DNA of 64,000 bases, taken from positions 234,352,646 through 234,416,645 of the forward strand of contig CM077163.1 of the NCBI GenBank assembly GCA_039583875.1, read 5' to 3'. Below the pieces are notes generated by a model. It saw only the letters and a program-made list of their open reading frames with translations, ran no database searches and was not told where the DNA came from. The translations under genes and the position numbers were made by a program. Of the stretch, positions 7,477 to 59,721 are shown piece after piece; the first letter of the stretch is position 1, and each line of letters begins with the position of its first letter. This DNA comes from Platanthera guangdongensis (lineage: Eukaryota > Streptophyta > Magnoliopsida > Asparagales > Orchidaceae).

Positions 7477-7716
7477 TATGTTTGACATTGAAGTAGCATT
7501 CCACAATGCATAAATTCGAGCAAGTGAAGATCGCCTTAGCCCTCTACTAAAGAGTGCATTTAGCCCAGCAGGAAAGGGTGATAGCAAAGATAAAGGCAGA
7601 ATCAGTAAGACTGCAAGGAAAGCCCCCAACGAAATCCAGTAGTACTGAATCAATGTGAGCAGAGTGATGGTGAAATCAGCCAATATCAATATACAGATGA
7701 GCAGTTGAAGCGTCTC
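7477..7716 (-). CDS. host gene exon 9 of 9 in window (membrane segments)
   Basis: This 240-bp exon (80 codons, phase 0 to 0) has the acceptor tatatttcag before 7716 and the donor gtaagt after 7477. It encodes two hydrophobic spans separated by a short loop (from about ETLQLLICILILADF to FLAVLLILPLSLLSP). The conserved PFPAGLNALFS block follows, and the exon ends ARIYALWNATS plus MSNI. The family protein continues beyond this point, so at least one further exon must lie left of the window. It is separated from the preceding exon by only 95 bp. Confidence 0.92.
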
Positions 7717-7811
7717 CTGAAATATAATAATTTGCATCAAAATTGTAATTTGGAAAGCTTTCACTGAACAGACTGATTTCAGAGAGGAACTAGATGTCTT
7801 CATAAAGTTAC

Positions 7812-8019
7812 CTGGAGACCGATGGGTCTGGCATTCAGCAATAGAAGAGAAAATGGGAACAAGAAATCTCTTTTATAATCCAAATATTTCAATGTTTCCT
7901 GATTTAATATACCTCCATTCACTCCTCCTGTCAATCTCTTGCGGGAAATTGATGAACTAACTGAAGGTTGGGTCTGTTGAATCTGTTTAGAATTCCTACG
8001 TAAAACAGGGATATTTTTC
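7812..8019 (-). CDS. host gene exon 8 of 9 in window
   Basis: This exon is 208 bp. Its first base completes the AG-G arginine codon split across the 28.6-kb intron; 69 codons follow and it ends in phase 0 at CAG|gtaact. The acceptor is ttctgtgtag. It encodes a variable polar, glutamine-rich stretch and then the conserved RKRLTGGVNGG and RDFLFPFSLLL blocks, the latter beginning a membrane-associated region. The exact phase match with the exon at 36609, 28.6 kb away, is the main evidence that the two belong to the same transcript. Confidence 0.9.
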
Positions 8020-8699
8020 CTACACAGAAACATTAGGTCAAAAGGATTCTAATTGTTCTAAAGTAGTACAGTTATATATTTTTCATAAAAATCATTAACA
8101 ATCAATCTAAAACCTAATCGAGTCAATTTAGACTGAGCAAGGCTTGATTCAAAATCAAAATTTACAAATCTAGCTCGGCACGAGCCGGCTTGAAACAAAC
8201 TCAAGCCTGTTTGATATATGGAACATTAATTAATCAATTATAAAATAAAATATAGTTTTTTAAATGCTTTGCAATTTTTAACTGTCTCAGGGATTTAAAA
8301 GTATGGTGTATTAAAGATAAGATAAATGATAAAAGATCAGATGACACATGATTTTAAGTTGACTCAAATCAGATTTCGAGTGAGCCAGACCCGGCTTGAA
8401 ACTGGATTCAAACCATTTTATTTGACAAATCGTCACCGTAGTTCCGTTGAGCTCTCCTCAAAATCAAATAGCTCAAAGTTTTAAAAGGTAGAAGGATGTT
8501 ACAAAAATGAAAAAAAAAATAGAAAAGAACAAAGAGAAATAAGATGAGACAAACATTTGTAAGGTTCAAAAACATGTGTAATTCTCCCATCGCATTATGA
8601 TAGAAAAAACTCCAACTCCAAGAGGTTAAGTGCACAAGTCATACTATGGACAACTCACACACCCCCTAATAGTCTTTGTTTGTCGAGTCATTGTCAGCC
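8020..8699. other. intron sequence, possible degraded MITE
   Basis: AT-rich non-coding DNA at the acceptor side of the giant intron. Two GC-richer patches (gcacgagccggcttg near 8176 and gagccagacccggcttg near 8382) resemble the inverted ends of a small non-autonomous DNA transposon. I could not define its ends or target duplication. Confidence 0.35.
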
Positions 8700-8844
8700 T
8701 ATTTGTGACTTTGTGTATTGGGGTTTATTCCCACATCGTTTATGTGAGTAAATGTGTCTATGTAAGTCCTATATATTGCCCCTATGAGAAAGAATAAATT
8801 ATAACTTCTATTTTCCATTCACTCTTCCAACATGGTATCAGAGG
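8700..8844 (+). repeat. 3' part of a Ty1/copia-type LTR and primer-binding site
   Basis: The sequence from about 8700 carries a TATA-like tatatattgcc and ends ttccaaca at 8832, immediately followed by tggtatcagagg, the methionine-initiator tRNA primer site used by plant copia elements. The LTR's left boundary is not clear and no matching right LTR was found, so this is the 5' end of a truncated or rearranged element. Confidence 0.6.
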
Positions 8845-8899
8845 GTGAGATCTGTTGAGAACACTTCTGCTCTCTCCTACCTTAGGGATCCCGTGGGCT

Positions 8900-12016: not shown

Positions 12017-12164
12017 TGATGGAGACGTCGTCCCCCAAATTGCTAATGATGACGGCATGCTAGCGGAAGATCCTCCTTCGTCGCCTTCAAAAGACTTGCG
12101 TCGTCATGGTGATCGTGTGGAGCGACGCTACAACCTCCGCCCTCGGCGCAAGACCGCTTCATAA
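12017..12164 (+). pseudogene. chromovirus pol C-terminal tail (orphan)
   Basis: This short piece is nearly identical to the last 49 codons of the pol frame ending at 14636 (VERRYNLRPRRKTAS at its end). It is joined directly to the gag remnant by a large deletion and is followed by the LTR. Confidence 0.85.
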
Positions 12165-12172
12165 TAATTAGT

Positions 12173-13226
12173 TGATCACTATCAATTTTATTTGGATAAA
12201 TTTATTTTGTTATTTGCTTAAGCTTGTTTAATTTTTCTTTATGGTTTAGACTTTAGAGTGCATGTTTATTTTTATGGGCTGCATGTAGCCTAGCCATTGT
12301 TGTAAGCCTATATAAGGCCTAGGATATTTCATTATGAAGGCAAGTTGAATGAGAATTTGAAATCCCACCTCCAAAAGGAATCTCCCCCCTCTCCCTCCTA
12401 TTCTAATTTCGGCTCCCTCTCAATCCTAGCCTTCTTTCCCCTCTTGGCCACCAACCTCCTCTCCCCCTCAAGCCGCCAACTTCTCCCCTTCTTCCCCCTC
12501 ACAACTCGGCCACCAGCCCTCCACCATTCCAAGCCGCCACCCATCACAAGCCCCCTCTCGGCCACCAACATCTCCCACTCTAGCCGCCGCCAACCCCCTT
12601 CATCCACCAACCACAAAGCCAGCCCCCTCCCCTCCCCCATTCAAGTCTACATCCGACCACCACGGGCGTGACGCGACGACGGCGGAAGAACTTTTCTCCA
12701 TCCGGCGTAACTCCGACGGAGCCGTGGACGAGCGTTCCAAGTGAGATAGTCGGAATCATCCATTCCGACTTGGGTAACGAAACTTCTACTCCCGTGTGTT
12801 TTCCCTCTTGGATATTCTTGTGGCGGCCAATTGTTGCGTTGGATTTCGAAGCTTGAAAATAAATCGTGGTTTATTTCAATTGAATTGTGTTCATCTTAAT
12901 TGTTTTAATTTTCGAAAGGTTTGGCGAACCTCGTAGCGTTTTGTTGGGAGAGATCTACCGTTTTCCGGATCGTAATTTTGGTAGATCTTTTTTGGTACAA
13001 CTCGCTCGGTCGGATCTAATATTGATCCTTTTAGCCGGAACGGATATTGGTCTATAGCCTCTATTCGGTCCCTAAATGGTTTGGCTTCCCGTGCGTTAGC
13101 ATAATCGTGATAAAATTGCTTGGAGTGTGCGCGGCGGAACTTCTGTGCGAGTGCCGATTTTAAATCATCGAGAGGCGAATGTAGTGATCCGTAGGTCTCC
13201 CGGCGACGACGCTTAGGCCTGCATCA
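12173..13226 (+). repeat. chromovirus LTR (central, shared)
   Basis: This 1,054-bp LTR begins tgatcactatc and ends ggcctgcatca, followed by aatttggtatcagagg with the primer-binding site. It has a TATA-like tatataagg near 12310 and a CT/C-rich leader region. It matches the copy at 14645-15698 over its full length. Confidence 0.85.
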
Positions 13227-13310
13227 AATTTGGTATCAGAGGGAGGTTCCAGTCAATTTCCTAATTGCCTCCCTTCCCCTGTTGTTTGCACGCTCTTATC
13301 TTGCACGTTT

Positions 13311-14636
13311 AGACGTCATGACTCTATCTTGGTCGTCGTAGATCGCTTCTCCAAAATGGCATATTTTATCGCGTGTAATAAAACCAACGATGCGTCACAC
13401 GTTGCACAATTATATTTTAAGGAAGTAGTTGGTCATCGAGGCGTTCCAAAATCTATAGTTACTGATAGGGATGTGAAGTTTACAAGTTATTTTTGAAAGA
13501 CCTTGTGTAGGATTATGGGCACCAAACTTCTGTTCTCTTCAGCCTACCATCCACAGACGGATGGGCAAACGGAAGTGGTAAACAGAAGTTTAGGTAGTTT
13601 ACTACGATGCCTTGTGGGAGACCACAAGGGTACATGGGACCTTCTCCTCCCTCATGCCCAGTTAGCATATAATAATTCCAAAAATAGGTTCACTGGCTTG
13701 TCTCCGAATGAGATCGTGCACGGATATAAAGCACCGGTGCCACTCGACTTGATTCCTTTACCGCCGTCTTTTAAATCAAGTCAATTTGCACTAGATTTTG
13801 CCTCTCATATTCATAATCTGCATAAGCACATAAAGGACACGCTAATCACACAATACGCGTCTTATCAAGCTCATGCTAACGTACATAAGAGAGCTTCTCA
13901 CTTAAAAGTTGGCGATCTAGTCATGGTGTGTCTCATCCCTGAACGGTTGTCTACGGGCACCTTAAAAAAGTTAGCGGATAGGAGAGCGGGACCTTATCGG
14001 ATTTTAAAGAAATTAGGGGACAATGCATTTCTTTTGGACTTACCAACTGATTGGGGTATTTCCTCTATTTTTAATGTTTCGGATTTAACGTCATATGTTG
14101 CTCCGCCGCAAGAACTATCTTCATGTCCGTTTAGCTCCACTACAGGTTCTAATGGGTTTGGGGTCGAGGGTGTTATTGGATCGCTCCCTCCATCGGTCTC
14201 CAGCGGAGGTACGTTGAATGTTGAAGAAAATGCTTTTCCTCCCTTGTCGCCTAAAGCTTTTCCCAGGTTTCCCCGGACACACTTTTTGTCAGACAGGATT
14301 CTACAGGATGAAGTGCTTCCCTCTCCAGATGGCGATGTGCACCGCTACTTGATTCGATGGTGCGGTCGTCCCGCCTCCGATGACTCTTGGCTCCCGGAAT
14401 CGGAGGTGGCTCTATTGGATGACGCTCTTCTTCGACGGTACCTTCAAGACAACTCATCGGTGATGAGTCCTTTCGAGCGGGGGAGGATTGATGGAGACGC
14501 CGTCCCCCAAATTGCTAATGATGACGGCATGCTAGGGGAAGATCCTCCTTCGTCGCCTTCAAAGGACTTGCGTCGTCATGGTGATCGTGTGGAGCGACGC
14601 TACAACCTCCGCCCTCGGCGCAAGACCGCTTCATAA
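13311..14636 (+). pseudogene. chromovirus integrase plus chromodomain, one stop
   Basis: The frame carries the integrase core with [14 protein letters not shown] (first Asp), VTDRDVKF (second Asp) and a TGA at 13494-13496 where a Trp is normally found. It continues with AYHPQTDGQTEVVNRSL (catalytic Glu), a GPYRILKKLGDNAF block of the C-terminal domain, and a chromodomain-like end with YLIRWCGR and SWLPESEV. It ends VERRYNLRPRRKTAS. The zinc-binding N-terminus of integrase and all upstream domains are missing. The chromodomain is a targeting module of chromoviruses, thought to read histone marks. Confidence 0.88.
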
Positions 14637-14644
14637 TAATTAGT

Positions 14645-15698
14645 TGATTACTATCAATTTTATTTGGATAAATTTATTTTGTTATTTGCTTAAGCTTGTT
14701 TAATTTTTCCTTATGGTTTAAACTTTAGAGTGCATGTCTATTTTTATGGGCTGCATGTAGCCTAGCCATTGTTGTAAGCCTATATAAGGCCTAGGATATT
14801 TCATTATGAAGGCAAGTTGAATGAGAATTTGAAATCCCACCTCCAAAAGGAATCTCCCCCCTCTCCCTCCTATTCTAATTTCGGCCCACTCAATCCTAGC
14901 CTTCTTTCCCCTCTTGGCCACCAACCTTCTCTCCCCCCCCAAGCCGCCAACTTCTCCCCTTCTTCCCCCTCACAACTCGGCCACCAGCCCTCCACCATTC
15001 CAAGCCGCCACCCATCACAAGCCCCCTCTCGGCTACCAACATCTCCCACTCTAGCCGCCGCCAACCCCCTTCCTCCACCAACCACAAAGCCGGCCCCCTC
15101 CTCTCCCCCATTCAAGTTTACATCCGACCACCACGGGCGTGACGCGACGACGGCGGAAGAACTTTTCTCCATCCGGCGTAACTCCGACGGAGCCGTGGAC
15201 GAGCGTTCCAAGTGAGATAGTCAGAATCATTCATTCCGACTTGGGTAACGAAACTTCTACTCCCGTGTGTTTTCCCTCTTGGATATTCTTGTGGCGGCCA
15301 ATTGTTTCGTTGGATTTCGAAGCTTGAAAATAAATCGTGGTTTATTTCAATTGAATTGCGTTCATCTTAATTGTTTTAATTTTCGAAAGGTTTGACGAAC
15401 CTCGTAGCTTTTTGTTGGGAGAGATCTACCGTTTTCCGGATCGTAATTTTGGTAGATCTCTTTTGGTACAACCCGCTCGGTCGGATCTAATATTGATCCT
15501 TTTTAGCCGGAACGGATATTGGCCTATAGCCTCTATTCGGTCCCTAAACGGTTTGGCTACCCGTGCGTTAGAATAATCGTGATAAAATTGCTTGGAGTGT
15601 GCGCGGCGGGACTTCTGTGCGAGTGCCGATTTTAAATCGTCGAGAGGCGAACGTAGTGATCCGTAGGTCTCCCGGCGACGACGCTTAGGCCTGCATCA
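14645..15698 (+). repeat. chromovirus 3' LTR
   Basis: Same length (1,054 bp) and near-identical to 12173-13226, beginning tgattactatc and ending ggcctgcatca. It lies eight bases after the pol stop codon. Confidence 0.85.
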
Positions 15699-16111: not shown

Positions 16112-16116
16112 CACAT

Positions 16117-18565: not shown

Positions 18566-18569
18566 TTTG

Positions 18570-23947: not shown

Positions 23948-24481
23948 CAGTCATGGTCAAAAAACCTGATCGGGCCGGGCTTGGCCAGGCCCGGTCGGGC
24001 CCGGGCTTTTTATCAACCGGGCTTGGCTCGGGCCCAGTTTGAACGGGGTCGGGCCGGGCTCGGGCTCCCTCTCAAAAGGTGAGCCCGGTTAGGCCCTTCA
24101 GGTCGGACCGGGCCGGCCTGAACACAAAAGGCGGGATTTTAATCCCGCCTATGATTAGGCAGGATTAAATCCCGCCTATGATAACCCCTCCTAATCATAG
24201 GCGGGATTTAATCCCGCTTATGATTAGGCGGGATTAAATCCCGCCTATGATTAGGCGGGATTAAATCCCGCCTATGATTAGGCGGGATTAAATCCCGCCT
24301 ATGATTAGGAGGGGTTATCATAGGCGGGATTAAATCCCGCCTATGATTAGGCGGGATTAAAATCCCGCCTGCCAGGATTAAAATCCCGCATGCCGGGCTT
24401 TTCCCGGGTCGGGCCTTGCTGGGCTTTTGCCGGGCCCGGGCCGGCCGGGCTTTCCGGGCCCGGGCTATTTGCCCATGACTA
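23948..24481. mobile_element. hAT-like MITE with 8-bp target duplication
   Basis: The terminal inverted repeats cagtcatggtcaaa (left) and tagtcatgggcaaa (right, reverse complement) bound a 534-bp segment. It is flanked by the exact 8-bp direct repeat cttgcacg (23940-23947 and 24482-24489). The 8-bp duplication and the Y-A-G start suggest the hAT superfamily. Subterminal regions are very GC-rich (gggcccgggc words) and the core is a palindromic array. No transposase is encoded, so movement would depend on an autonomous relative. Confidence 0.82.
24130..24389. repeat. palindromic 27-bp repeat array in the MITE core
   Basis: The unit gcgggattaaatcccgcc followed by tatgattag recurs about nine times. 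Each unit is nearly self-complementary, and the array as a whole folds back: taacccctcctaatcatagg on the left is mirrored by cctatgattaggaggggtta on the right. A long single-stranded form would make an extended hairpin. Confidence 0.9.
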
Positions 24482-27806: not shown

Positions 27807-27978
27807 TATTAGAAAAGCCCATGTAAAAGGCCCATTTGATGGCCTATTTTTCTTCCTCCTTCTTTAGTCCCACATCATGTATAGGATTTATTCTTCTCTC
27901 TTCTCTCCTATATATTTGTATTCTCTCCTTGTATTTACATACTGAAATAATACATACAAGCTTTGGGCTCTTTCAACA
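27807..27978 (+). repeat. 5' LTR of intact copia element
   Basis: It runs from tattagaaaagccc to ctttcaaca and contains a TATA-like tatatatttgt near 27911. The primer site begins at 27979. Confidence 0.95.
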
Positions 27979-27991
27979 TGGTATCAGAGCC
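27979..27991 (+). other. primer-binding site
   Basis: tggtatcagagcc, directly adjoining the LTR, is complementary to the 3' end of plant initiator methionine tRNA and primes minus-strand DNA synthesis. Confidence 0.9.
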
Positions 27992-28004
27992 AGGTTGCGT
28001 CTAG

Positions 28005-28640
28005 CAGCGGACTGCCCCTTCTCTGTCCGCCCGGTCTCCTGCGGACTGCCCCTTCTCTGTCCGCCCGGTCTTCTGCGGACTGCCCCTTCTCTGTCCGCCC
28101 GGTATCCTGCGGACTGCCCCTCTGCTTCTGTCCGCCCGGTCTCGTGCGGACTGCCTTCTGCATCCGCTCCGGTCTCGTGCGGACTGCCCTTCTGATTCCG
28201 CTCCTCTTCTCTCCCTCCGTGGTTCCACCCTCCCCAGGCTTCTTATAGCCATCTTCTGCTCTGACTCGTGGGGCCCACCTCTCTCCATCCGCTCCGGACG
28301 CTCATTCCTGTCCGCTGCGGGCTCTGCTTGTATCCGCTCGAGCCTCTCTGCTCACGGACTGCTCCCTCTAACTTCTCTCTCTCTCGCTGCGGGCTCTGCT
28401 TGTATCCGCTCGAGCCTCCTTGCTCGCGGACTGCTCCCTCTTGTCTGCTGCGGCTCCGCTTGTATCCGCTCGAGCCTCTTTGCTCGCGGACTGCTCCCTT
28501 TAGCTTCTCTCTCTCTCGCTCGCTGCGGGCTCTGCTGGTATCCGCTCGAGCCTCCTTGCTCGCGGACTGCTCCATCTAGCTCGCTCCTTTTTTGTCCGCT
28601 CGAGCCTCTGCTCGCGGACTCTCTCTCTCCGCCTTCCCTT
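28005..28640 (+). repeat. GC-rich tandem repeats in the copia leader
   Basis: Two repeat series are present. One unit, about 31 bp, contains gcggactgccccttctctgt and recurs about six times (28005-28200). A longer unit of about 75-80 bp, containing tatccgctcgagcctc and gctcgcggactgctcc, recurs about four times (28310-28640). They lie between the primer site and gag. Confidence 0.88.
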
Positions 28641-28930
28641 GCGGACTGCTCCTGTCCGCTGCGGGCTCTGCTTGTCTCCGCTGTGCTCCTCTTCCAGCGA
28701 CCTGCCCACAGTTCGTCGCGACCTCTTGCGGACTGCTCCTTGTTCGCTGCTGCGACCTGCCCCAGTTCGCCGCGGCCTCTGTCGCGGACTGCTCCTGTTC
28801 GTCGCGGCCTCACTCTACTCGCCGCGACCTCCAGACCGCCGCGGCCTCCAGCCCGCCGCGACCTCCAGCCGCCGCGACCTCCAGACCGCTGCGGTTTGTT
28901 CTCTCTGAGCCCTGCTGCTCTTCAGTCGCC

Positions 28931-33067: not shown

Positions 33068-33219
33068 AAGGCCCATTTGATGGCCTATTTTTCTTCCTCC
33101 TTCTTTAGTCCCACATCATGTATAGGATTTATTCTTCTCTCTTCTATCCTATATATTTGTATTCTCTCCTTGTATTTACATACTGAAATAATACATACAA
33201 GCTTTGGGCTCTTTCAACA
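33048..33219 (+). repeat. 3' LTR of intact copia element
   Basis: Same length as the 5' LTR with one visible difference (ttctctcct versus ttctatcct). It includes the last codons and stop of gag-pol and is followed by the target duplicate gaaac. Confidence 0.95.
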
Positions 33220-33851: not shown

Positions 33852-33867
33852 TCCCCCCCCCCCCCCC
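33852..33867 (+). repeat. C homopolymer run
   Basis: A run of about 16 C in solo LTR copy 2, where copy 1 has ctgaccccccgtgg. Copy-number errors are likely in assemblies here. Confidence 0.8.
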
Positions 33868-34280
33868 GTAGGCACTGTTTTTATAGGTGACCAAGGTGGG
33901 AGACTACGCCTAAGATGAGCGTTTTGTGCAGTCAGTTTGTAGTAGCTTCCACTTTCAGTTTTCTCTTTTTCAGCATATATTTGTAAATATGAACAATGTA
34001 ACTTGTTAATGTTTTATATGTCATGTATCAGACTTATGATATTATTTCAGAATTTCAGTCATTTCACTTCTATTCATGTTTAGTGGCTCTGGGAAACCAG
34101 ATATCAGGTACATGGTTATCCTTATTTTACTTTCTTAGCTTCCGTTGTAAGTTTTAAAATTTTTAGTAGCTTCTACTTTATACCTGATGTGTACTAGTTT
34201 TGAAACTGTTTCTTAGTTTTCTTTATATCGCTGACCCGGCCGGATGACTGATTATTGTAAAACTTGGAAGGGGTGCTACA

Positions 34281-35420: not shown

Positions 35421-35452
<32 letters not shown>

Positions 35453-36608: not shown

Positions 36609-36877
36609 CTTGTATCTAAGATATCTGCCTGATGCACATTGTTGAAAAACTGTTCATTAACAGTAACTACAATTCCTAATTGATTATAACCAGAAGCAGT
36701 TGCCTGGAACCAACCGAGTTCAATCCTAACACCATGGGGCTCAAGCTGTGGATTTCCATGACTGTTGATCCATAAAATAACAGAAACTAGGGAAGAACGA
36801 ATGTTTCCTTGTCTCACACTCCGTAAATGAGCATCTAATCCAGCAACAAATCTAGTCCAAATGGCTGTAGACAAATA
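36609..36877 (-). CDS. host gene exon 7 of 9 in window
   Basis: This 269-bp exon starts in phase 0 after acceptor gactgcag, and its last two bases (AG) are completed by G in the exon at 8019. The donor is gtatta. It encodes RFVAGLDAHLR, a basic stretch, and the family-typical RIELGWFQATASGYNQ, then a poorly conserved VNEQFFNNVHQ tail. It is probably cytosolic. The donor borders the 28.6-kb transposon-filled intron, and 85 bp separate it from the preceding exon. Confidence 0.92.
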
Positions 36878-36962: not shown

Positions 36963-37148
36963 CTGGCCAAGGAGATTTGTCAATAACATGTCACTATGGA
37001 GATAGTACGGTGACATGTAACTTCCATCACCCCCGAAAATACACATTGGGAATCTCTGCATAATAGTCGATGCAACATCTAGCCGTTTTTCATCACCACC
37101 CAGAAAAAAGTCAATATATGCAACCATCAAATCAGGCGTTGAACCAAC
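36963..37148 (-). CDS. host gene exon 6 of 9 in window
   Basis: This exon of 186 bp is 62 whole codons, with acceptor gattgcag and donor CAG|gtatct. It encodes two strongly conserved blocks, DLMVAYIDFFLGGDEKR and GGDGSYMSPYYLHSD, diagnostic of this plant membrane-protein family. The function of the blocks is unknown to me. Confidence 0.94.
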
Positions 37149-41242: not shown

Positions 41243-41477
41243 CTTCATCCCTTTGTAAAGAGCACGTGATCTACAAGACTGAAGACATGAATGATCATAC
41301 TCTGATTTAACATATTCCTGAAGACGGTGAATTTTCTTTCTTCGACGCCATTGCTTCCAAGACCAGGCACAAGGGTAGGCAAGCACTGAAAGAATGCTAT
41401 GTACTGATCCTTCCCACCACTCATATGCAGAAACTGAGTTGATGGCGTCAATAAACCGGTTGAAAGCGTCTTCGTAC
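41243..41477 (-). CDS. host gene exon 5 of 9 in window
   Basis: This exon is 235 bp. Its first base completes the GT|G valine codon begun in the exon at 47935, and it ends in phase 0 at AAG|gtttga. The acceptor is attttttag. It encodes YEDAFNRFIDAIN, then WWEGSVHSILSVLAYPCAW with a hydrophobic segment, then the basic SWKQWRRRKKIHRL and SEYDHSCLQSCRSRALYKG. All are strongly conserved in the family. Confidence 0.95.
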
Positions 41478-41768: not shown

Positions 41769-41956
41769 TGTTAGAAAAGTTCATCTAAAGAACCTATTAT
41801 TGGGCCCAAGTTTTTATTGTTGTTTTTCCTTCTTCTCCTATTAGTCCCACATCATGTATAGGATCTCTCCTCTCCTTTTCCCTTCCTATATATTTGTATT
41901 CTCTCTTTGTATTTACATACACAAGCAATACATACAAGTTTTCAGCTCTTTCAACA
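41769..41956 (+). repeat. copia 5' LTR
   Basis: It runs from tgttagaaaagttc to ctctttcaaca and contains a tatatatttg TATA-like box. The primer site starts at 41957. Confidence 0.9.
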
Positions 41957-42844
41957 TGGTATCTGAGGGAGGTTCCCGGTCCATGTGGTTTCCCATTTTC
42001 TAACCGCCCAGACCGCCTTCCTCCCCTGTCCGCAGACTGTTCTGCGGCCTCCCCTTTCCTACCCGCTTCTATCCGCGGGTTCCTCTCCTCCGGCTCTTCT
42101 CGCCGGCCTCCCTGCGGTCTACCCGCCTCTTCTCCCTCTCTCCCGTGGTTCCACCCCCCCCTCTTTTATACCATTTTCTCTCCCTCACCCGTGAGACCCT
42201 CTCCCGGTTCGACCTGTGTTCTGTCCGCTGCGGTTTCTTCCTTGCCGCGCGGTCTCTTCGTCGCGCGACCTGTTTTATGTCTGTTGCGGCTTCTTCCTTG
42301 CCACGCGCGAGTCCTTTTCTTCTTATTGCACGAAGGTCGCCCCTCACTTGTTGCTCGAGTTCTCCTACTCGCGGCCTCTTCTCGAGACTTATCCTACTCG
42401 CTGCCTTCTCTTGTTGCTCGAGTTCTACTACTCGCGACCTCTTCTCGCGGCTTCTCCTACCTGCTGCCTTCTCTTGCCGCTCGAGTTCTCCTAATTGCGG
42501 CTTCTTATACCCGTTGTCTTCTCTTTGCCGCTCGGGTTCTCCTTTCTCGCGCGGTCTCCCTCCCTAACCGCTGCGCCTTCGACAATGTTCTGTTCGAGCC
42601 AACCTCTCTTGTCGTTCATTCTCTGACCGCTAGTGTCCTCACTGTGACCGTGCAGTTTGTTTCTCCTCACTCTGGTCGCGGCCTCCCTCTCTCCTTCATT
42701 GCATGCCGCTGCTCTTGTCGCCTTGACTACCCGTTGCGACCTCTTCTGCAAAACGCGTGGGCTTGTCGTGCAAGAATACTCTCCGGCGGCGACCTCGTCT
42801 ACCCACAGTGTCCTTTCCTGCTCTCTGCGGCCTCTCCGGTCTAC

Positions 42845-45800
42845 ATGGGATCCTCCGTTGACTCCACCAGCCAGGCGGCTAACCCCTCTGCAGACCGCCC
42901 GGCTTCTCCTCCTGAACTTGGTGATGAGCTGCGGATCACCACCATTTCCCTGTCTGGAAAGAAGAATTTCATCTCATGGGTGCACTCGGTTCGCTAAGTT
43001 CTTCAGGCCAAAGGCCTTCATCTCACTCAGCAACCTCCTTCTCCTCCTACCGACGACTGGTTGTGCAACGACGGTCGCGTTCAGACGTGGCTCCTCAATT
43101 CCCTGGAGGGTGAGCCCTACCAGATGGTCATGTATTGTGAGACCACAAAGGCTATGTGGGATGAGCTCCACTCCTTATACTCCGACAAGGACGGCCTCTA
43201 GCACCTCTATGACATTATTACCGATCTTCAGGCTCTTGATGTCGGCAGGGCGGCGGACATGACTTCGTTTGTAGCTCGTGCTAAGACTCTTGCGGAGGCC
43301 TGCATCCAACATCAGCCTTCTACCGCTGATCTTGCTGCGCAGCGAGCACAAAAGGAGGCCGTTTGCATTGCTATGATAATGGCTTGCATCCCGACACACC
43401 TCCAGGTATTCGTGCTCAGGTTCTGGCTTCGGCCACTACTCCTTCCTCATCTGATGTTTGCTCTATGCTCCTTCGAGTGTCACCGCCCCCGGATACTCCA
43501 GCACCCTCCTCTTCGGCCCTTCTCCATCAGACCCTCCCCTCTTACTTCCCCCACCGTCCTCTACTCATGGTGGACGTTCGGGCTCCCGCGGAAGGGAGTG
43601 TGGTGGTCGGGTCCGCCCAAAGTATTCCTATTGTGGATGGGATGACCACACTGAGGCAGTTTGCTACAAGAAACACGGCTACCCTCCTCGTCCGACTGCT
43701 GCTGTTGCAGCTGACTGCTCTTCTGCCACAAGTGCCAACCTTGAGGCCGTTCGCCTCCATCTATAGCAACTTCATGGGCTGCTCAACCCTCCATCAGCTT
43801 ATGTTGCCTCCACCTCCACTGCAGGTATGGCTTGTTTTTCCTCCAGTCCGAGCTGGATCTTGGACTCAGGTGTCACTCATCACATCACCTCGTTGTGGCC
43901 GCCCAAGTACTCGGATGCTCCTCATCTGAAGTGTATCACCATGGCTAATGGGGCGATTGTTCCAGTCTCCGGTTGTGCTAACATCTCCCTCAACCCCTCC
44001 ATCTCTCTTTGCTCGGCTCTTTATGTTTCGGGCTTCTCATTCAATTTCCTTTCTGTTGGTCGTCTTACTAAAGATATGGATTGCTCTGTTACATTCACCT
44101 TTTCTGCTTTTTTGATACAAGATCGGCAGACGCAGATTACCATTGGTAAGGGTCGACTGCAAAACGAGCTCGACCTTCTCGATGCCTCTCCTACCGTCCT
44201 TTCCTCCGTCTCATCCATTGATTGGCATCGCCATCTCGGACATGCCCCTCTGCCAGTCCTCCAGAAGGCGTTTCCTGATGTATCTCTTCCTCTCTTTAAG
44301 TGTGATTCTTGTATTTTCGGCAAACAGCTGCGTTCTTCTTTTTCCGCACATTGTACTCGGAGCTCGCCTCTTTTTGATTTACTGCACTCCGATATTTGGG
44401 GTCCTTACAAAATTACTAGTATTTCCGGTTATCGCTACTTTATCACCTTTATTGATGATTACTCTCGCATGATGTGGCTTTATTTACTTTGTCATCGCTC
44501 CGAGCTTCCTCGCGTATTTCGCGCTTTTGTGCTAGAGACTCGTACGCAATTCTCCACTACCATAAAAACGTTGCGCACTGACAATGCTCGCGAGTACACG
44601 AGCCACGAATTTGCAAATCTGTGCGCGGAGTTCAGTATCATTCATCAGACATCATGTGTCTACACCCCCCAGCAAAACGGCATTGCCGAACGGAAAAAAC
44701 CGACACCTGCTTGACGTTGCCCGCTCCCTCATACTTCACATGCATGTTCCCAAAGTTTACTGGAACATTGTGGTCTCCACTGCTTGCTTCCTCATCAACT
44801 GTCTCCCTTTCTCGGTTCTCCACCATGCAACTCCGTTCAGCCTCCTATTTCCCTCCACTCCGGCATTCCCAATGACACCCAGGGTCTTTGGTTGCACCTG
44901 CTTCGTCCATCTTCTGGGTCCATCCACGGACAAGTTGGATCCCCGGGCGGCTAAACAAATTTTTGTCGGCTATTCCCGGGCTCAGAAGGGTTATATGTGT
45001 TATTCTCCGGTTACCCGGAAGGTCTCCATATCAGCTGATGTTACCTTCCGGGAGGATCAACCTTTCTTCTCTACTCTACCACAGACACCTCCACCGTCAT
45101 CCCTCCCACGACCTGTTATTCCCGTTATTGCGCATCTTCCACAGGTTTTTCCTGACCCAGCCCTTGCTCCTTCCAAGCCGCCTGTTATCCGTGTCTACAC
45201 TCGCCTCCCTCTTTGTTTTGTTGCCCCTATACAGTCGGCCTCGGCGTCGGCTTCTCCGTGTCCTGCTGATCCGGTGCCCGCCTCTACAGCTCATCCGATG
45301 GCAAACTTTGTCTCCATGCATCGCCTCTCTCCCCACCTTCGGACATTTGCTACTTCACTGTTCTCGGTTTCTGTTCATACCTCTGTGCAGGAGGCGCTCC
45401 AACATCCTGGCTGGCGGGCCGCCATGGGGGAGAAAATAGCTGCCCTCTGGGCCAATCAGACATGGATTCTCGCCCCCCTTCCTCCGGGTCAGAAACTGGT
45501 TAGGTGTAAGTGAGTCTTTGTCATCAAACATGCTGCTGATGGGACGATTGACCGACTGAAAGCTCGGCTGGTGACTCGTGGCTTCACCCAACAATAGGAG
45601 CTTGACTATGAAGAAACTTTTTTCTCCGATAGCCAAACTCAACACCGTTCGAGTCCTCATATTTGTGGTTGTCCATCTCTGGTGGCCCTTCAATTGGATA
45701 TTAAGAATATCTTTCTAAATGGAGATCTCCAGGAGACAGTGTATATGCAGCAACCTCCCGGATTTGAGACCACAGGGGAGTCTCAGGTCTGTCGTCATAT

Positions 45801-46943
45801 GAAAGCTTTGTATGGTCTCAAACAATCCCCACGGGCGTGGTTTGACAAGTTCAGTAAGGCCCTTCGGGAGGTTGCTTTTACTCGAAGCTCGACAGACTTC
45901 TCGTTGTTCACTCGTCACCGAACAACGGGAACGGTTCTTCTGTTAGTATACGTTGACTATATCAAAATTACAGGAGACGACTTGAAAGGAATACAGGAGG
46001 TCAAACTACACCTGAGCATAGTTTTCAAACAAAAGATCTGGGGCCCCTTTGATACTTCTTGGGTCTTGAGGTTGCCAGACGGCCAGACGGTCTCGTCGTC
46101 TCTCAGCGAAAGTATTGTCTTAACCTCCTTCATGATGCTGGCTACTCAGGTTGTAAGTCGGTTGACACCCCAATGGATGTAAATCACAAGTTGTGCGCTC
46201 AGGCTTCTGACTCAGACATCCTACTCCAGAATCCAGAATACTATCGTCGTCTCGTTGGAAAATTGATCTATCTCACGGTTACCAGACCAGATATTTCCTT
46301 CGTTGTTGGTATTGTCGGTCGGTATATACATTCCTCTCGAATATCTCATCTTCAGGTCGTTGAAGGCATTCTCAGATACCTTAAGACGGCTCCTGGTCAA
46401 GGACTGGTATACAAAACCTCATCTTTAGCTCCAACATTGGTGACATATTCTGATGCTGATTATGTTGGTTCTCTTGATGATCGACGGTCAACCAGTGGCT
46501 TTTGCACATATTTTGGAGAACATTTGATTACCTGGGGAAGCAAGAAACAAGCGGTCATTGCTCGATCATCAGCCGAGGCAGAATACCGGGCAATGGCTTC
46601 AGTGGTTTCTGAAATAACTTGGCTTGAAAGTCTTCTTATCGATTTGGGTGTAAAGCTCCCTTCCCCAGCTATCCTCCTCTGTGACAGCCATGCTGCTATA
46701 CATATATCCAAGAACCCGGTCTTCCACGAGAGAACAAAATATATTGAAGTCGACTGTCACTTTATCCGGGAAAAGGTTCAAATGAAGAAGCTCGACCTGA
46801 AGAATGTTCTAGGGTCTGAACAAGTTGCAGATGTCCTCACAAAGGCTCTTTCCAGTACTCTCTTCTATCAGTGCTTGTCCAAGCTTGGCGCATACGATTT
46901 GTACGCTCCAGCTTGCGGGGGAGTGTTAGAAAAGCCCATGTAA
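42845..46943 (+). pseudogene. copia gag-pol with multiple stops and frameshifts
   Basis: The start MGSSVDSTSQAANP lies at 42845. A TAA follows the gag words WVHSVR at 42995-42997. Gag then continues with stops (for example TAG at 43199) and shifts through the knuckle YCGWDDHTEAVC. Protease WILDSGVTHHITS carries DSGV in place of DSGA. Integrase is open to NGIAERKK, where a one-base shift occurs (about 44695). Reverse transcriptase has TGA at about 45511, TAG near 45596 and YVDY replacing YVDD, and RNase H is open to the LTR. The changed active site alone would abolish polymerase activity. Confidence 0.9.
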
Positions 46944-47110
46944 AGAGCTCATTATTGGGCCAAAGTTTTTATTGTTGTTTTCCTTCTTCTCCTATTAATC
47001 ACACATCATGTATAGGATCTCTCCTCTCCTTTTCCCTTCCTATATATTTGTATTCTCTCTTTGTATTTACATACACAAGCATTACATACAAGTTTTCAGC
47101 TCTTTCAACA
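46924..47110 (+). repeat. copia 3' LTR
   Basis: It follows the purine tract gcgggggag, ends ctctttcaaca, and is followed by the target duplicate ctcag. Confidence 0.9.
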
Positions 47111-47934: not shown

Positions 47935-48062
47935 ACAAGTCCAATAATTGCATCTGGTGGAGAGTAAGGAAGATGCCAAGGTTCTCTGAATGTGTTTGGA
48001 CCCATAAAGTACAGCCTATGCACATGACTTTGAGTTTCTTCAGCTCTGCTAGTCCCAGGAAC
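47935..48062 (-). CDS. host gene exon 4 of 9 in window
   Basis: This exon of 128 bp starts in phase 0 after atgaattag and ends GGACTTGT|gtacag, leaving two bases completed 6.5 kb away at 41477. It encodes RAEETQSHVHRLYFMG and then NTFREPWHLPYSPPD, highly conserved in the family and probably cytosolic after the membrane span of the previous exon. Confidence 0.95.
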
Positions 48063-48157: not shown

Positions 48158-48426
48158 CTCAGCCAGTGACAGAAGGTATGGAAAGGAAGATGAACCATCA
48201 TTTTGAATAGGATTTGAAGTTCGATATCTAAAATCAGTTCCAACCATTTTTATTCTTAAAGCACTTAAAATAAGTGCTAAGAGTACCAGTATAAATGAGA
48301 GAAGAACTGCAAATGGCCAAGGACCTCCAAAAGTATATATCAATTCTTCAAGTGGAGTGAAGCATTTTGGCATCTTGTACTTGTCAGATAAACATTTATA
48401 CGGGCAGAATGACTGTGTGACCCCAC
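48158..48426 (-). CDS. host gene exon 3 of 9 in window (membrane span)
   Basis: This 269-bp exon has acceptor ctatacag and donor GAG|gtatga. It starts with the last two bases of a glycine codon and ends in phase 0. It encodes SFCPYKCLSDKYKMPKC, which closes the cysteine module, then LEELIYTFGGPWPFAVLL and a strongly hydrophobic transmembrane segment (about 22 residues), then a polar stretch ending SLAE. This is the first clear membrane span visible in the window, separating the extracellular cysteine part from the cytosolic part by inference. Confidence 0.95.
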
Positions 48427-48573: not shown

Positions 48574-48682
48574 CTCGAACATATATGAAGTCCGCTCTCT
48601 GGGGAAGTAAATCAAGCGAGCAGGAAGTACAGAGTGATGGATCAGATCCAACAACATCTTTGTATGTACCAACAGGACATTC
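48574..48682 (-). CDS. host gene exon 2 of 9 in window (cysteine module)
   Basis: This exon is 109 bp, with acceptor gttatttcag and donor CGAG|gtaact, and ends after the first base of a glycine codon. It encodes ECPVGTYKDVVGSDPSLC and then CSLDLLPQRADFIYVRG. The C-P-x-G-T-Y pattern is like the GCC2/GCC3 cysteine-rich repeats also found in ephrin receptors. That probably explains the ephrin-receptor-like label this plant family carries, and no kinase domain is implied. Confidence 0.95.
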
Positions 48683-50373: not shown

Positions 50374-50990
50374 AGTGAAAAATGGACAAAGAGCTAAATA
50401 AACCGCAAACTTTATTGTTCCAAAAAGATAATTATTACATAGGTATGCCCCTTATTTATATAAACTGGGGAGATGAGAGAATTACAACAAAGGATGTGAG
50501 ACTAAATACAATTTGTGTTGTTTATGAGGTTTGACAACATCAAACAGCACACTATACAAAAGAATAACAAAACTCACAACACCACCAAGGGAAACCGACA
50601 GTCCGCCAAGGAAGACCGTTGGGCAAGCCGCCAGACCGCAACTGCGGGTTGCCACCAGACCGCAGTTGCGGCTACCGACCAGATCGCAGCGCTGCAAGCT
50701 ACCAGACGCAACTGTGGGATGCCACTAGAGCGCAGTTGTGGTTAACCACCAGTCCACTGCCGCGGCTTCTACCAGACCGCTGCGGCTTCATGCAGACCGC
50801 TGCGGCTAACCGATATCGAACAACCGTTGTTAACTGCTAGACCGCTGCGGCTACCTTCAGACCGTTGTTGGTGCTCCTGATCGCAAGCTGAGGTTTACCA
50901 CCAGACCGCTGGACCAAACTGCCAGGTCGCTAGGACCAGTAGACTGTTGCGGTTAAGAACAAGACCGCCCGGTCTCCACTAGATCCAACA
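50374..50990 (-). repeat. inner copia 3' LTR
   Basis: It matches 54906-55542. Its transcribed part holds repeated accagaccgc(a/t)gttgcgg words. Confidence 0.9.
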
Positions 50991-50999
50991 CTCCCTCTC

Positions 51000-53900
51000 A
51001 AGATGGAGCATATATATCTACCATGCCCAGCTTACTACAAACCTCCTCAAAAGAAGTAACCGGTTTGGCGAAGTCAGCTAGTTCTTTCTCATAGGTAACA
51101 AATGGTGCGCAGATCTGATTCTTCAAAATCTTATCTCTGATGAAATGACAATCCACCTCGATATGCTTTGTTCACTCATGAAAAACTAGATTTCTCGAAA
51201 TATATATAGCTGTTTTATTGTCACAGAACATGGGTAGGGGATGATCATAAAACTCTCCCAGATCAAGTAAGAGAGTCTGTAGCCACTTCAACTCGCAAGC
51301 AGTCTGAGTCATGTTTATGTATTCAGCTTCTGCACTTGACCGGGCAACTACAGTCTGTTACTTACTCTTCCAGCTGACAAGGTTACCTCCAACGTAAGTG
51401 CAAAAGCCAAATGTAGATCTCCTATCTTCCTTATCATCTGCGTAGCTAGCATCAGAATAAGTCTCAACCTTCAAATGCCCTCTTTTCTGAAACAAGAGCC
51501 CTTTTTCCTGGCGGACCTTTTACATACTCTAAAATCTTTAGAGCTGACTGCAAATGACATTCTTTGGGGGCTTGCATAAACTGGCTTATTTTTCCTACTG
51601 CATACCAAATATCTGGTCTTGTAACCGTCAAATAAATGAGTTTACCCACAAGACGTCTGTATCTGATAACATCTTCAAGAATAGGAGAATTTTCATTCCA
51701 ACATTTATCATCCCCAACAGCCATAGGAGTCCCAGCGGGTTTATCCCCAAGAAGGCATGTCTCCTTCAAGAGATCTAACGCATACTTTCTCTGTGAAAGA
51801 ACAACAAAACCAGATTTCCGATATATCTCAATCCCCAGAAAATATTTAGGAGACCTCATATCTTTGGTGACAAAATGTTGAAGCAGATGCTTCTTTGTCA
51901 TGTCAATACCATTTTTTTCATCCCCTGTAATAAGAATATCATCCACATAAACCGCAAGAATAACCAGAACAGACGAGGATTTGCGGATGAACAAAGAATG
52001 ATCTGCAGCACTACGGGAGAACCCAATCACAGAAATAACTTCATTAAACTTGTCAAACCAGGCTCTGGGACTTTGCTTAAGACCGTAGAATGTCTTTCGC
52101 AGCTTGCAGACCTGAGACTCCCCCGGAGCAACATACCCAGAAGGTTGCTCCATATAGACAGTTTTATGTAAATCACCATAAAGAAAGACATTGTTCACAT
52201 TCAGCTGAGACATTTCCCAGTCTCGGTTGACGGCCACAGAAAAGAGCACACGGATCGTAGTTATCCTTGTCAAAGGAGAGAAAGTATCAAAGAAATCCAC
52301 ACCATAAGTCTGCGTGAAATATTTGGTAACAAGTCGGGCCTTGTAACGATCAATTGACCCATCCGGGAGAAACTTTATAACAAAGACCCAGCGACAACCA
52401 ACAATATCAGCACCTGCAGGTGTAGGAACAAGAGTCCATGTACACCGATCAGTAAAAGTACGCATCTCTTCATCCATAGCAGCCTTCCAATGGGGAATAA
52501 GAAGAGCATCTTGATACAAGACGGGAACACTATTGGTCGAGAGGGCCAGAACAAAGCTCCTAGACGAAGGAGAGAGCTGAGCATAAGAAACCACAGCCTG
52601 CAGAGGATGCTGGGTGCAGGAGCGAACACACTTTCGAAGAGCAATCGGAAGATCAAGATCACTCGTGGCCAAGGAAGGCAAGTCACCGTCAAAAAAAAGA
52701 GGAGGCTCCAGAACAGGCACAGAGGGCCCTAAGGGCAACACAACAAGCTCCAGCGAAACAGACGGAGCAGCAGGAGTAGAGGTGGAAAGAACCGGCTCTG
52801 GAGGAAATGACGAGAGAATAGGCAGGGAAGAAGAAGTATCAGCAGGCACTAGAGAAGAAGTAGGGGAGAAATACAGAGTATCTTCAAAGAAGGTAACATC
52901 TGCGGAAACATACTGTTTACGCAAGAGAGGATCAAGACATCGATACCCCTTCTGAGTAGGACAATAGCCAAGGAAAATACATTTAACCGAACGAGGAGAA
53001 AGTTTGTCACGTCCAGAAGAAGGAACATGGACAAACGCCGTACACCCAAAAGTTTTAAGGGGCAAAGGAAAAGGTTTCGGCCTCTGCATATAGAAGAGAA
53101 AATGGAGTCCTTCCCTGAAGAACGGATGAGGGAATACGGTTAATACGATAGCAAGAGAGAAGAACCGCATGACCCCAGTAAGACTGAGGGTCATTCATTT
53201 GTAAAGAAAGACTGCGAGCAACCTCCAGAAGATGACGATTTTTGCGTTCAGCAATGCTATTCCGTTGAGATGTATATGGACAACCTGTTTGATGAACCAA
53301 AATCTTGCCCGCACAGAAGTCAGAGAATTGATGGCTTACATATTCTTTGGCATTATCAGTACGAATAACTTGAATGGGCACACGAAACTGTGTGAAGATC
53401 TCATGATAAAAGGCAGTGAATACAAAGAACAGTTCAGAACGATCCTTCAAGAGATACAGCCAAGTGCACCTGAAGAAATCATCAATGAATGTGACAAAGT
53501 ATAAGCTTCCTCGACCAACAGTCGCAACAGGAGAAGGACCTCAGATGTCAGAGTGAACTAGTTCAAAAGGACGCGAAGAATAACGGCCTGTTCGAGCTGG
53601 GAAAGAAGAACGATGATGTTTACCCAACTCACAAGCTTCACAATTCAAAGGCAAATCGTCTGAAGGAAATCCGAAAAAAGCTGATGAATGAAGCGAGAAG
53701 GAGGATGACCAAGACGACGATGCCACATCTGAACAGAAGAAGAAGCAGAAAGAGCAACATCGTGGTGAAGATAAAAAAGGCCACAACGAGCAGTACCAGT
53801 AGCAATTGTAGCATTCGAGACAGAATCAGTGAAAAAATAGTGGGTGCCAGTAAAAATAACCGTGTAATTTAACTTAGTACAAAGAGCATGAACAGAGAGT

Positions 53901-54140
53901 AAATTGCACGGGAAAGTAGGGACATAGAGAGTGTTCTCTAGCAGCAAAGACAGAGAGAGATGCACAGTGTCAATACCACGCACAGGAACAGAAGTCTCAT
54001 CAGCAATAACAACATGATAGCGTGTTCTTCTCAAGCAAATAGGAAAACAAACGAGAGTTGTCAGTCATGTGACAAGTTGCACCAGAGTCAATAAGCCACT
54101 TGTCAGAGAAGGCCACAAAAGCACAAGTAGTAGAAGAGAG
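51000..54140 (-). pseudogene. inner copia protease to RNase H (several breaks)
   Basis: Minus-strand order: protease KWLIDSGATCHMTD (about 54100); QMWHRRLGHPPSRF of the integrase zinc region (about 53710); integrase core with RTDNAKEYVSHQFSD and SQRNSIAERKNRHLLEVA (Glu kept); a serine/proline-rich linker. Reverse transcriptase from about 52480 contains GCRWVFVIKFLPDGS, YGLKQSPRAWFDKF and VILAVYVDDILITGDE. RNase H words run to about 51010 with stops. The stretch 53194-51464 is one open frame. This copia lineage differs from the 27807 family (KPAGTPMAVGDDKCW in place of the DANHK region). Confidence 0.87.
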
Positions 54141-54279
54141 AAGGGAAGCTATATGTAAGAAGAAACCGGAAAGCAGAAATACTAACCACACGGTTAGAAA
54201 CAAGTCGTACAAGAACAAGTCGGCAAAGAAGGCGCAGAAGAAACCGACCACCGGAAAGGTAGCGGAAAAAAGAAGAAAT

Positions 54280-54830
54280 CGCACGGTCATGGTGTCAACA
54301 CACCAGCGGCTAGAAATGAGGCCGCGGCCAAAATGCAGTACTCGCAGCAAAGAAGAAACAAGGCGCAAGAGGACAGCCCGCGGGAAGAAGGAGAAGGGCA
54401 AGAGTCCGCCCAGTCAAGGTGACAACACACCGGCAGCAAGGAAAAAAGTCACGACCAAAAGGCGGAACGCGCAACAAGGATGAGAAACCGCGCAAACACA
54501 ACAAGTCGCAGAGACAAGCGACGAGCAAAGAAACTGCGGCAAGAAGAAGAAAGAGAAGAGCCAGAGCCCGCCCGGTCAAGGTGACAACACACCAACGACC
54601 ACGAAGAAGTTGCGACCAAAAGGCGAAACTCGCAAAAGAAGAGCGGGCAGCAGAGAAAGTCAGGCGAACAGAAACACCCGGTAAGAAGCAAGTCGCAAGC
54701 ACAGCGAGAAGGGAGGGAAGGGAAAGGAAAGAAACCAGACAAACCGGAAGAAGTTGGACAAACCGGAAGAAGCAAGGGAGGGAAGGGAAGGGAAAGAAAC
54801 CGGACAAACCGAAAGAAGCCGGACGAAGCC
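54280..54830 (-). repeat. leader repeats of the inner copia element
   Basis: Words caaggtgacaacacaccgg (54416) and caaggtgacaacacaccaac (54574), each followed by cgaccaaaaggcg(g)aac, mark a tandem unit of about 158 bp, with a degenerate copy near 54290. A second short repeat with aaccggaagaag follows (54730-54830). Confidence 0.8.
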
Positions 54831-54905
54831 GGTGGAAGAGGCCGCGCGGTTAAAACAACAAATCCCGATCTTTTTGAAGTAAAGGATCTGTTGGCTCTGA
54901 TACCA

Positions 54906-55542
54906 AGTGAAAAATGGACAAATAGCTAAATAAACCGCAAACTTCATTGCTCCAAAAAAATAATTATTACATAGGTATGCCCCCTTATTTATAGAAACTG
55001 GGGGAGATGAGAGAATTACAACAAACGATGTGAGACTAAATACAATCCGTGCGGTTTATACGGTTTGACAACATCAAATCGCACATTATACAAAAGAATA
55101 ACAAAACTACCAACAACACCAAGGGAAACCGCCAGTCCGCCAGGGAAGACCGTTGGGCAAGCCGCCAGACCGCAACTGCGGGTTGCCACCAGACTGCAAC
55201 TGCGGGTTGCCACCAGACCGCAATTGCGGCTACTGACCAGATCGTAGCGCTGCAAGCTACCAGACGCAACTGTGGGATGCCAATAGACCGCAGTTGCGGT
55301 TAACCATCAGTCCACTGTTGCGGCTTCTACCAGACCGTTGCGTGCAGACCGCTGCGGCTAATTGATATCAAACAACCGCTACTAACTGCTAGACCGTTGC
55401 GGCTACCTTCAGACCGCCGCTACTACTCCTGATCGCAAGCTGAGGTTTACCACCAGGCCGCTGGACCAAACCGTCAGGTCACTAGGACCAGTAGACCGCT
55501 GCAGTTAGGAACAAGACCGCCCGGTCTCCACTAGCTCCAACA
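54906..55542 (-). repeat. inner copia 5' LTR
   Basis: It matches the LTR at 50374-50990 with small indels and is adjacent to the primer site (minus strand tggtatcagagcc ending at 54905). Confidence 0.9.
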
Positions 55543-58060: not shown

Positions 58061-58879
58061 TGTGGCAAGGCACAGTCAGGAACTTGGAAAAGTTAGAACT
58101 TGCAGTCACGTTCGGTCAGGAGAACGTGCGGGTAGCAGCACTGATACTGCCGAGGAGAGCGGCAAGTGCCAAGGAGATCAACGGACAGGCGATTAAGACC
58201 TAGCCCGCTGACTAGCTTGCAGACGTGGCAAGCGCGGACGAGAACTGGCGGGCAGGAGCAGCAGCGTACAGCTCTGTCAAACATGGGATCTGCAATTTAA
58301 GCAGCAAGGCAACGAGAAAACGAGCAAAGCTCGACAATGCCTAGAAGCGGAGGTTAGATAAGATGGGGGCCGGCAGTAGCTAGAAGCAGCGAGAAAAAGG
58401 ACAAAGTAGAGGCAAGGGTTGGCGGCTTTGAGCAGTCTAGCGGCGCGATCTTTACAACTTGAGTAAGAGTTAGAGGCGAGCAGAGGTCAACAACCAGAAG
58501 AACGAGAAGATCGGAGCGACCATGAGAGCACGGTATCGGAGCAGTCAAAGGCACAAGTAGAAGGGGGAATGTGATCACAGGACCTAGTAACCGAAGGGAG
58601 TTCAGCGATGGAGAGATCGCAAAAGAGCTAGTTGCGAGCAGAGCGAGCGGATCAGTTAGAAAGGAAAGGTCGCGGATATCATCAGTCAAGTGGGGCCCCG
58701 TTGGCAGCAGGAAAAGCCTAAAAAAGGCGAGGAAGAGTAACTCAGAGAGAACAAGGGGGAATTCCTCGTGAAGGGAGCTGATCTATAGTTAGAAGAGCTG
58801 ACCACGGAGAAGGGAGAACTCGGAGGACTAGGAACTCAAGCCACGCGAGAAATTTGAGGATCGGTTTGCTCTAATACCA
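58061..58879 (-). other. leader of the outer copia element
   Basis: GC-rich, repeat-poor leader between the primer site tggtattagagc (minus strand, ending at 58879) and gag. It contains short open frames with no recognisable domain. Confidence 0.55.
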
Positions 58880-59080
58880 TGTAGAGAATTACGACAAAAG
58901 AAAAAGAAAATCAATATTTTATTAATTTCTCGTATATTTCTCATGAATACAACACTAGTATTCGTGCATATATACATAGGAGGAGAGAGAAAAGTCTAAA
59001 CGTCATCCTAAGGTATGGGACTAATCCCTAAGAGGGTCATGGGCCTATTATATAGGTCTTTCTTTACAAGTTATTTAACA
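58880..59080 (-). repeat. outer copia 5' LTR
   Basis: This is 201 bp, in minus orientation tgttaaataac to ctctaca, directly followed by the primer site. It shares general layout but not sequence with the other copia LTRs here. No second copy is in the window. Confidence 0.8.
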
Positions 59081-59627
59081 AACATAAATTCAGAAATCAT
59101 TGGACGTAAACTTGTCATGTGCACATAACCCATGGTCTGTGCTAATATCAAAATGAACAAGCATATACAACAGAACACTAGATTGGGCACGCAATCTAAT
59201 AATCTCCTTTTTCTTCCAAAAGCGAAAACTTTCAAACTTCTGTACATTTTTCTCGTGGTTACAGCAACCTTTAAAAATAAATAAGACAAATCCCAAACCA
59301 CGTTAGAACCTTCAATCTCAAACTGTTTCTACCCATTTAGCCTTCTATCACTGTAAGTCTTGGTTAGCTTCTCTCTCTCTCTACAGAAAATAACTTCATG
59401 GGCTTGCGCATGGTAAAAATTATGAAATTCTTGGTTATTTCATTTTAGCCTTGTGCAAGTATTTGCATGAATTTCCTGCATACTAAGCTCATTTAATTGA
59501 TAATCATGTATGCATGCATGCTACATGGCGAACAAAATACAAAAACAGGAAACCTTGATGTGCAGTTAATTCCATCTGCAGTTAGGCTAAAAAAACAAAT
59601 GTATGAAATTGGGATAATTAGACGTAC
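59081..59627. other. intron flank at the donor side of exon 1
   Basis: AT-rich intron sequence between the outer copia LTR and the exon donor gtacgt. Nothing else was recognised. Confidence 0.45.
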
Positions 59628-59721
59628 AACGCAGAAAGTGCCATAGAGTCCATTAGGACACTTCTTTCCTGTAATTGTTCCCTCTGCGCCTTGATAGCCA
59701 CCACTGTTACCAGCCCCTCCA
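59628..59721 (-). CDS. host gene exon 1 of 9 in window (end of glycine-rich region)
   Basis: This exon is 94 bp. Acceptor ttcatacag is followed by one base of a split codon and 31 codons, ending in phase 0 at GCGTT|gtacgt. It encodes a glycine-rich stretch and then GTITGKKCPNGLYGTFC, the conserved end of the family's glycine-rich ectodomain. ECPVGTYK in the exon at 48682 continues this directly. About 10.9 kb of nested copia elements separate the two. Earlier exons, including the signal peptide, are outside the window. Confidence 0.92.

Follow-up and report, generated by a model that had tools for sequence, protein, structure and literature searches.

Very long introns and the capture of host sequences by retrotransposons have both been described in plants. 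For Cycas, sizes of 2.1 Mb and about 1.5 Mb have been reported for the longest gene and the longest intron, respectively (PMC9023351). For the orchid Platanthera guangdongensis, the genome report gives a content of 82.18% repeats and 73.24% long terminal repeat (LTR) elements, and it describes the average messenger RNA (mRNA) and intron lengths of both Platanthera genomes as above those of most other sequenced plants (PMC9023349). Template switching as a route by which LTR elements capture host sequences has also been reviewed, and many captured sequences have been described in the LTR elements of sorghum (PMC13317346). Here, we analyzed a stretch of 64,000 nucleotides (nt) from P. guangdongensis, a fully mycoheterotrophic orchid. 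This stretch, hereafter the window, is C17:234352646-234416645, where C17 is contig CM077163.1 (240,082,996 bp) of an assembly of 4,245,561,818 bases in 274 contigs. We found that the window almost certainly comprises coding exons 12 to 20 of the 22 that make up one intact nuclear gene of P. guangdongensis, deposited as KSP40_PGU015913, and that a spliced fragment of the same gene lies within a retrotransposon on another contig, C6.

A preliminary description of the window, made from its letters alone, had proposed that nine pieces on the minus strand join into one uninterrupted protein, encoded by a single host gene hidden by its introns. We recovered the nine pieces (E1 to E9, Table 1) where they had been placed, with lengths, phases, and AG/GT borders in agreement for all nine and with exact excision at the borders. 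Once joined, they amount to 1,738 nt, which, apart from a single base at the start, read as 579 codons without a stop, and the codons split by the E4-E5 and E7-E8 introns are indeed completed across 6,457 and 28,589 bp, respectively. The first nucleotide of E1 belongs to a split codon, and the upstream junction of this exon was solved across an intron of 16,867 bp. At all 579 positions, the joined exons equal residues 740-1318 of protein P0124 (KSP40_PGU015913, Platanthera guangdongensis, 1397 residues). Because of this identity, and because the window is part of the same genome, the gene is real and was already annotated rather than hidden.

The joined protein had 115 relatives at E<=0.001 in a set of 7,992 scored candidates, with reported E-values down to 0. 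The best relative was from Tetracentron (75% identical over 98% of the query), and among the relatives listed, all of the names that included an organism were those of plants. The exons matched one plant protein family in order, and they belong to one deposited gene model, which bears out the proposal of a single host gene with transposons in its introns. When the Dioscorea homologue P0007 served as the query of a further search, 812 proteins were matched, and P0124 was among the best 120. When homologues were compared with the window by tblastn, P0001 and P0010 matched all nine exons in order and P0007, whose gene model is without the E2 segment, matched eight; in E5, the identity to P0001 was 93.7% over 79 residues. 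All eight junctions in the window are free of gaps with respect to Dendrobium nobile (P0120) and Apostasia shenzhenica (P0119), whose orthologues are collinear with the orchid protein studied here and are, respectively, 89.9% and 85.7% identical to it over the aligned part. In oil palm (P0117), seven of the eight junctions are gap-free, a small insertion standing next to E7/E8. Some further relatives in this alignment present insertions precisely at two of the eight junctions, which may be read as introns retained in the gene models of those relatives. The nine-exon pattern is far beyond chance.

The gene extends well past the window. P0124 matched the genome at 37 places (20 on C17, 13 on C19, 2 on C6, and 1 each on C8 and C1), and the complete gene comprises 22 coding exons running from C17:234528088 down to 234284538 on the minus strand, a span of 243,551 bp. 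Its coding sequence is 4,350 nt long with its sole stop at the end, and its 21 introns total 239,201 bp. In order, introns 1 to 11 measure 21,065, 18,040, 6,245, 16,747, 103, 10,626, 104, 21,622, 1,166, 765, and 16,867 bp, and introns 12 to 21 measure 10,945, 147, 95, 6,457, 4,094, 85, 28,589, 95, 26,683, and 48,661 bp, the first eight of the latter being those from E1 to E9; 13 of the 21 exceed 4 kb. The coordinates of the junction between exons 9 and 10 come from the first border solving and are supported by the continuous reading frame. The exon adjoining E1 upstream is C17:234429552-234429234, and the one following E9 is C17:234333438-234333353. Since the introns on these two sides (16,867 and 26,683 bp) cross both ends of the window, the window lies wholly inside the gene, as had been claimed. 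The preliminary description could give the size only as exceeding 52 kb, which understated the span of about 244 kb that the whole-genome exon map shows. Neither tblastn with homologues nor border solving revealed further coding exons in window positions 59722-64000 or 1-7476. Two weak tblastn matches, at 63210-63677 and 4192-4257, were rejected as extra exons, as they are glycine-rich or due to chance and the true neighbouring exons lie elsewhere on C17.

Completing the gene also revealed two exons that are missing from the deposited model. P0124 lacks 52 residues that are present in the Dendrobium protein P0120, and these correspond to exons 7 and 8, located at C17:234453699-234453644 (56 nt) and 234453539-234453440 (100 nt), both of which sit within what is a single 32,508-bp intron of the deposited protein. 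The second of the omitted exons has a GC donor (gcaagt), as does exon 4 (gcatgc). With both exons included, the protein has 1,449 residues, and without them it is identical to P0124.

At C6:14054351-14055178, there is an 828-bp stretch that aligns without gaps to the coding sequence of the gene and differs from it at 5 positions (99.4% identical). In this stretch, exons 5 to 9 follow directly on a part of exon 4 and run straight into a part of exon 10, so that six introns are exactly absent, including those of 16.7, 10.6, and 21.6 kb, of which the first and the last are GC-AG introns; the two exons omitted from P0124 are both present. The fragment was found as a single copy, the remaining seven of the eight DNA matches in the genome being the parent exons (these match counts are lower bounds). 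It lies between two LTR copies (C6:14053646-14053990 and 14056185-14056524) that are 98.3% identical over 345 columns, with CAATG on both outer flanks, TGGTATCAGAGC after the 5′ LTR, and a purine run before the 3′ LTR. We take TGGTATCAGAGC to be the primer site and the purine run to be the polypurine tract of the element. Next to the insert, a reading frame shows a Tf2-1-type SH3 match above the cut-off, together with integrase-core and chromo matches below theirs.

The simplest account of these features would be that the reverse transcriptase of a retroelement switched onto the spliced mRNA of the gene. The fragment demonstrates that the gene is transcribed and that its introns of 16.7, 10.6, and 21.6 kb are spliced out, and the locus as a whole may well be transcribed in full and spliced normally, in which case its mRNA would be unaffected. 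We regard the C6 fragment, with considerable though not complete confidence, as in effect a genomic complementary DNA (cDNA) clone. On this reading, transcription and splicing of the giant gene take place in cells where retrotransposons replicate, two GC-AG introns (16.7 and 21.6 kb) are correctly removed, the deposited protein is in error for want of two exons, and giant introns would have caused the annotation to overlook real exons here and perhaps in many other genes of this genome.

Several observations weigh against the reading of the window as part of one intact gene. P0124 was itself predicted from the same genome, and the identity with it confirms the choice of exons without being independent sequence evidence. 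The C6 fragment covers exons 4 to 10, which lie upstream of the window, and the window's own introns are outside its reach. PF26010.1 (DUF8003), a precomputed database label on P0124 and on most of the relatives among the matches listed, did not reappear when hmmscan was run on the 579-residue piece or on P0124, P0003, or P0120. In a comparison of constraint, for which 106 of 230 proteins were kept by length, coverage, and identity and P0124 was then dropped to leave 105, the window protein departs from the relatives at 7 of the 235 near-invariant positions, compared with a median of 2 among the relatives. Finally, a one-residue deletion in E6 is unique to the P. guangdongensis protein: the segment has three residues in P0124 and in the window, while it has four in 195 of the 196 pattern-matching proteins (of 230), and both Dendrobium and Apostasia keep the four.

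The last two of these points, together with the raised substitution rate published for P. guangdongensis (PMC9023349), could be taken to mean that the exons are in-frame relics of a decaying gene that is unneeded without photosynthesis and whose long introns result from weak selection. We consider this quite improbable, as all 22 exons are open and have usable borders over the 4,350 nt, the autotrophic Dendrobium and Apostasia show 5 departures each, 4 of the 105 relatives have 7 or more and thus equal or exceed the window protein, and the captured transcript fragment was correctly spliced and is recent enough to have kept its near identity. The departures and the E6 deletion are mild evidence of relaxed constraint, in agreement with the published rate, and not of a pseudogene. 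That the exon groups are instead two or more separate genes, or an assembly error, merely resembling one gene is hardly credible, for even if successive exons lie 28.6, 26.7, and 48.7 kb apart, distances that could in principle conceal the end of one gene and the start of another, the 22 exons are ordered on one strand of C17 in a single frame with matching phases, the window junctions are gap-free in both orchid orthologues, and each of the four LTR elements examined is complete and has the same target duplication on both sides, as would be expected of continuous sequence.

For a single intact gene with very long introns, a further question is what the length itself represents. A collinear paralogue on C19, which P0124 matched at 13 places from 50841719 to 51117066 (a spread of about 275 kb), is informative in this respect. 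Its intron values are approximate, being derived from protein matches that we take to belong to a putative single gene. On C19, the introns that correspond to E3-E4, E4-E5, E5-E6, and E6-E7 measure about 0.08, 0.13, 0.55, and 0.06 kb, compared with 0.095, 6.5, 4.1, and 0.085 kb in the window, and the distance between E7 and E9, with E8 included, is less than 0.5 kb, compared with 28.6 kb for the E7-E8 intron of the window alone. Past E9, the C19 introns are about 3.6 and 0.23 kb, compared with 26.7 and 48.7 kb in the C17 gene, and the paralogue's own wide gaps lie in its 5′ half. Given that the same introns are short in one copy and long in the other, insertion fits better than an inherent role for their length.

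The content of the window's introns, which we studied by self-comparison of the window and Pfam scans of ten frames, includes LTR retrotransposons. Retroelement-type domains were found in seven of the ten frames, and each of the four LTR elements examined (Table 1) is bounded by equal 5-bp flanks, which are target duplications; together, they occupy 19,606 bp, or 31% of the window. Two of the element ends were trimmed by 2-3 bases to TG...CA, and for the Copia element at 50374..55542, the flanks match solely with an AG start, a TG start giving a mismatch. Relative to the gene, some elements are in the same orientation and others in the opposite one. One repeat family is present in two copies in different introns, at window positions 1947-5983 and 26664-34280, with blocks that are 86-93% identical. 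The Copia element at 27807..33219 is nested in this family: it splits the repeat, of which a related unsplit copy is found at 1947-3879, and the flanks of the split repeat meet with a 5-bp overlap, as expected for a target duplication. The Copia element at 50374..55542 likewise appears to be nested, splitting an older Copia copy. The introns have probably been enlarged by serial retrotransposon insertion.

Table 1. Exons and LTR elements of the window, in window positions (a slash marks an exon border)
Feature	Position	Strand	Length (codons) or LTR identity	Borders or flanks	Remarks
E1, coding exon 12 of 22	59628..59721	-	94 nt (1+31)	acag/TGG ... GTT/gtacgt	
E2, exon 13	48574..48682	-	109 nt (36+1)	ttcag/GAA ... 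GAG/gtaact	Cys-rich, ephrin-receptor-like
E3, exon 14	48158..48426	-	269 nt (2+89)	tacag/GTG ... GAG/gtatga	First hydrophobic stretch
E4, exon 15	47935..48062	-	128 nt (42+2)	attag/GTT ... TGT/gtacag	
E5, exon 16	41243..41477	-	235 nt (1+78)	tttag/GTA ... AAG/gtttga	
E6, exon 17	36963..37148	-	186 nt (62)	tgcag/GTT ... CAG/gtatct	
E7, exon 18	36609..36877	-	269 nt (89+2)	tgcag/TAT ... AAG/gtatta	
E8, exon 19	7812..8019	-	208 nt (1+69)	tgtag/GAA ... CAG/gtaact	
E9, exon 20	7477..7716	-	240 nt (80)	ttcag/GAG ... ATA/gtaagt	Two further exons beyond the window
Copia LTR retrotransposon	50374..55542	-	86.9% over 643 columns	GCAAC/GCAAC	E1-E2 intron; RVT_2
Copia LTR retrotransposon	41769..47110	+	94.2% over 190 columns	CTCAG/CTCAG	Most of E4-E5 intron; integrase and retrovirus-type SH3 domains
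Copia LTR retrotransposon	27807..33219	+	99.4% over 172 columns	GAAAC/GAAAC	E7-E8 intron; gag, integrase, and RVT_2 domains
Gypsy-type LTR remnant	12017..15698	+	97.1% over 1,215 columns	CATAC/CATAC	E7-E8 intron; Tf2-1-type SH3 and chromo domains

Other sequence features of the window are a tandem array at positions 24129-24370, whose 27-bp unit includes the inverted word GGCGGGATTAAATCCCGCC, and a run of 29 G at 35424-35452. No RNA families or transfer RNAs were reported within the 64 kb.

With regard to the product, the gene encodes a large protein that is widely conserved in plants. Its front half is rich in glycine and is followed by a Cys-rich, putatively ephrin-receptor-like segment, by hydrophobic stretches, and by a conserved rear half. 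Homology extends along the whole of the conserved rear half to a plant family labelled DUF8003 or glycine-rich, ephrin-receptor-like, which we take to be the At5g47020 group. The preliminary description had named the At5g11700/At5g47020/At4g32920 family, and the one link to these Arabidopsis names found here is a database match named 'like AT5G47020' (P0184). The family is probably also present in Ginkgo, to which the name prefix Gb_ among the relatives presumably refers. In a Pfam scan of the joined piece, E2 matched PF07699 with 18 bits, below the cut-off of 23.1, and full-length P0124 matched no Pfam family at E<=0.01. An AlphaFold model of the Tetracentron homologue P0001, built from an alignment of 63 sequences, had low confidence, with a mean predicted local distance difference test (pLDDT) score of 62.9, and a Foldseek search of this model against the PDB gave no matches at E<=0.001; for these two reasons, we dropped the assignment of a function by fold. 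The product is a predicted integral membrane protein, which would be located at the cell surface or in the secretory route with its glycine-rich half on the extracytoplasmic side. The three Arabidopsis locus names appeared in no title or abstract returned by a literature search, and a search for 'DUF8003' was without match.

Since long introns have been published for the species and the gene had been deposited, the finding of a gene with such introns in the window is correct but not new. Within the few literature searches that bore on this gene model, what is added here is the true size of the gene, two exons absent from the deposited protein, and the transcript fragment captured on C6. The gene could be recovered from raw sequence despite introns of tens of kilobases, and in this LTR-rich plant genome, the annotation dropped two short exons between long introns. 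A general check is also suggested, in that spliced host fragments in retrotransposons may validate gene models where RNA data are missing.

As for the closest described systems, Cycas panzhihuaensis likewise has very long introns in expressed genes (PMC9023351), but the orchid gene is smaller (244 kb, with a longest intron of 48.7 kb), and the added DNA in the four elements examined is LTR retrotransposon. With the host fragments captured by plant LTR elements, the C6 element shares a host coding sequence between two LTRs, an integrase remnant, a motif resembling a primer site, and a 5-bp target duplication. It differs from them in that it is present as one genome copy and documents both the splicing of a giant gene and two unannotated exons.

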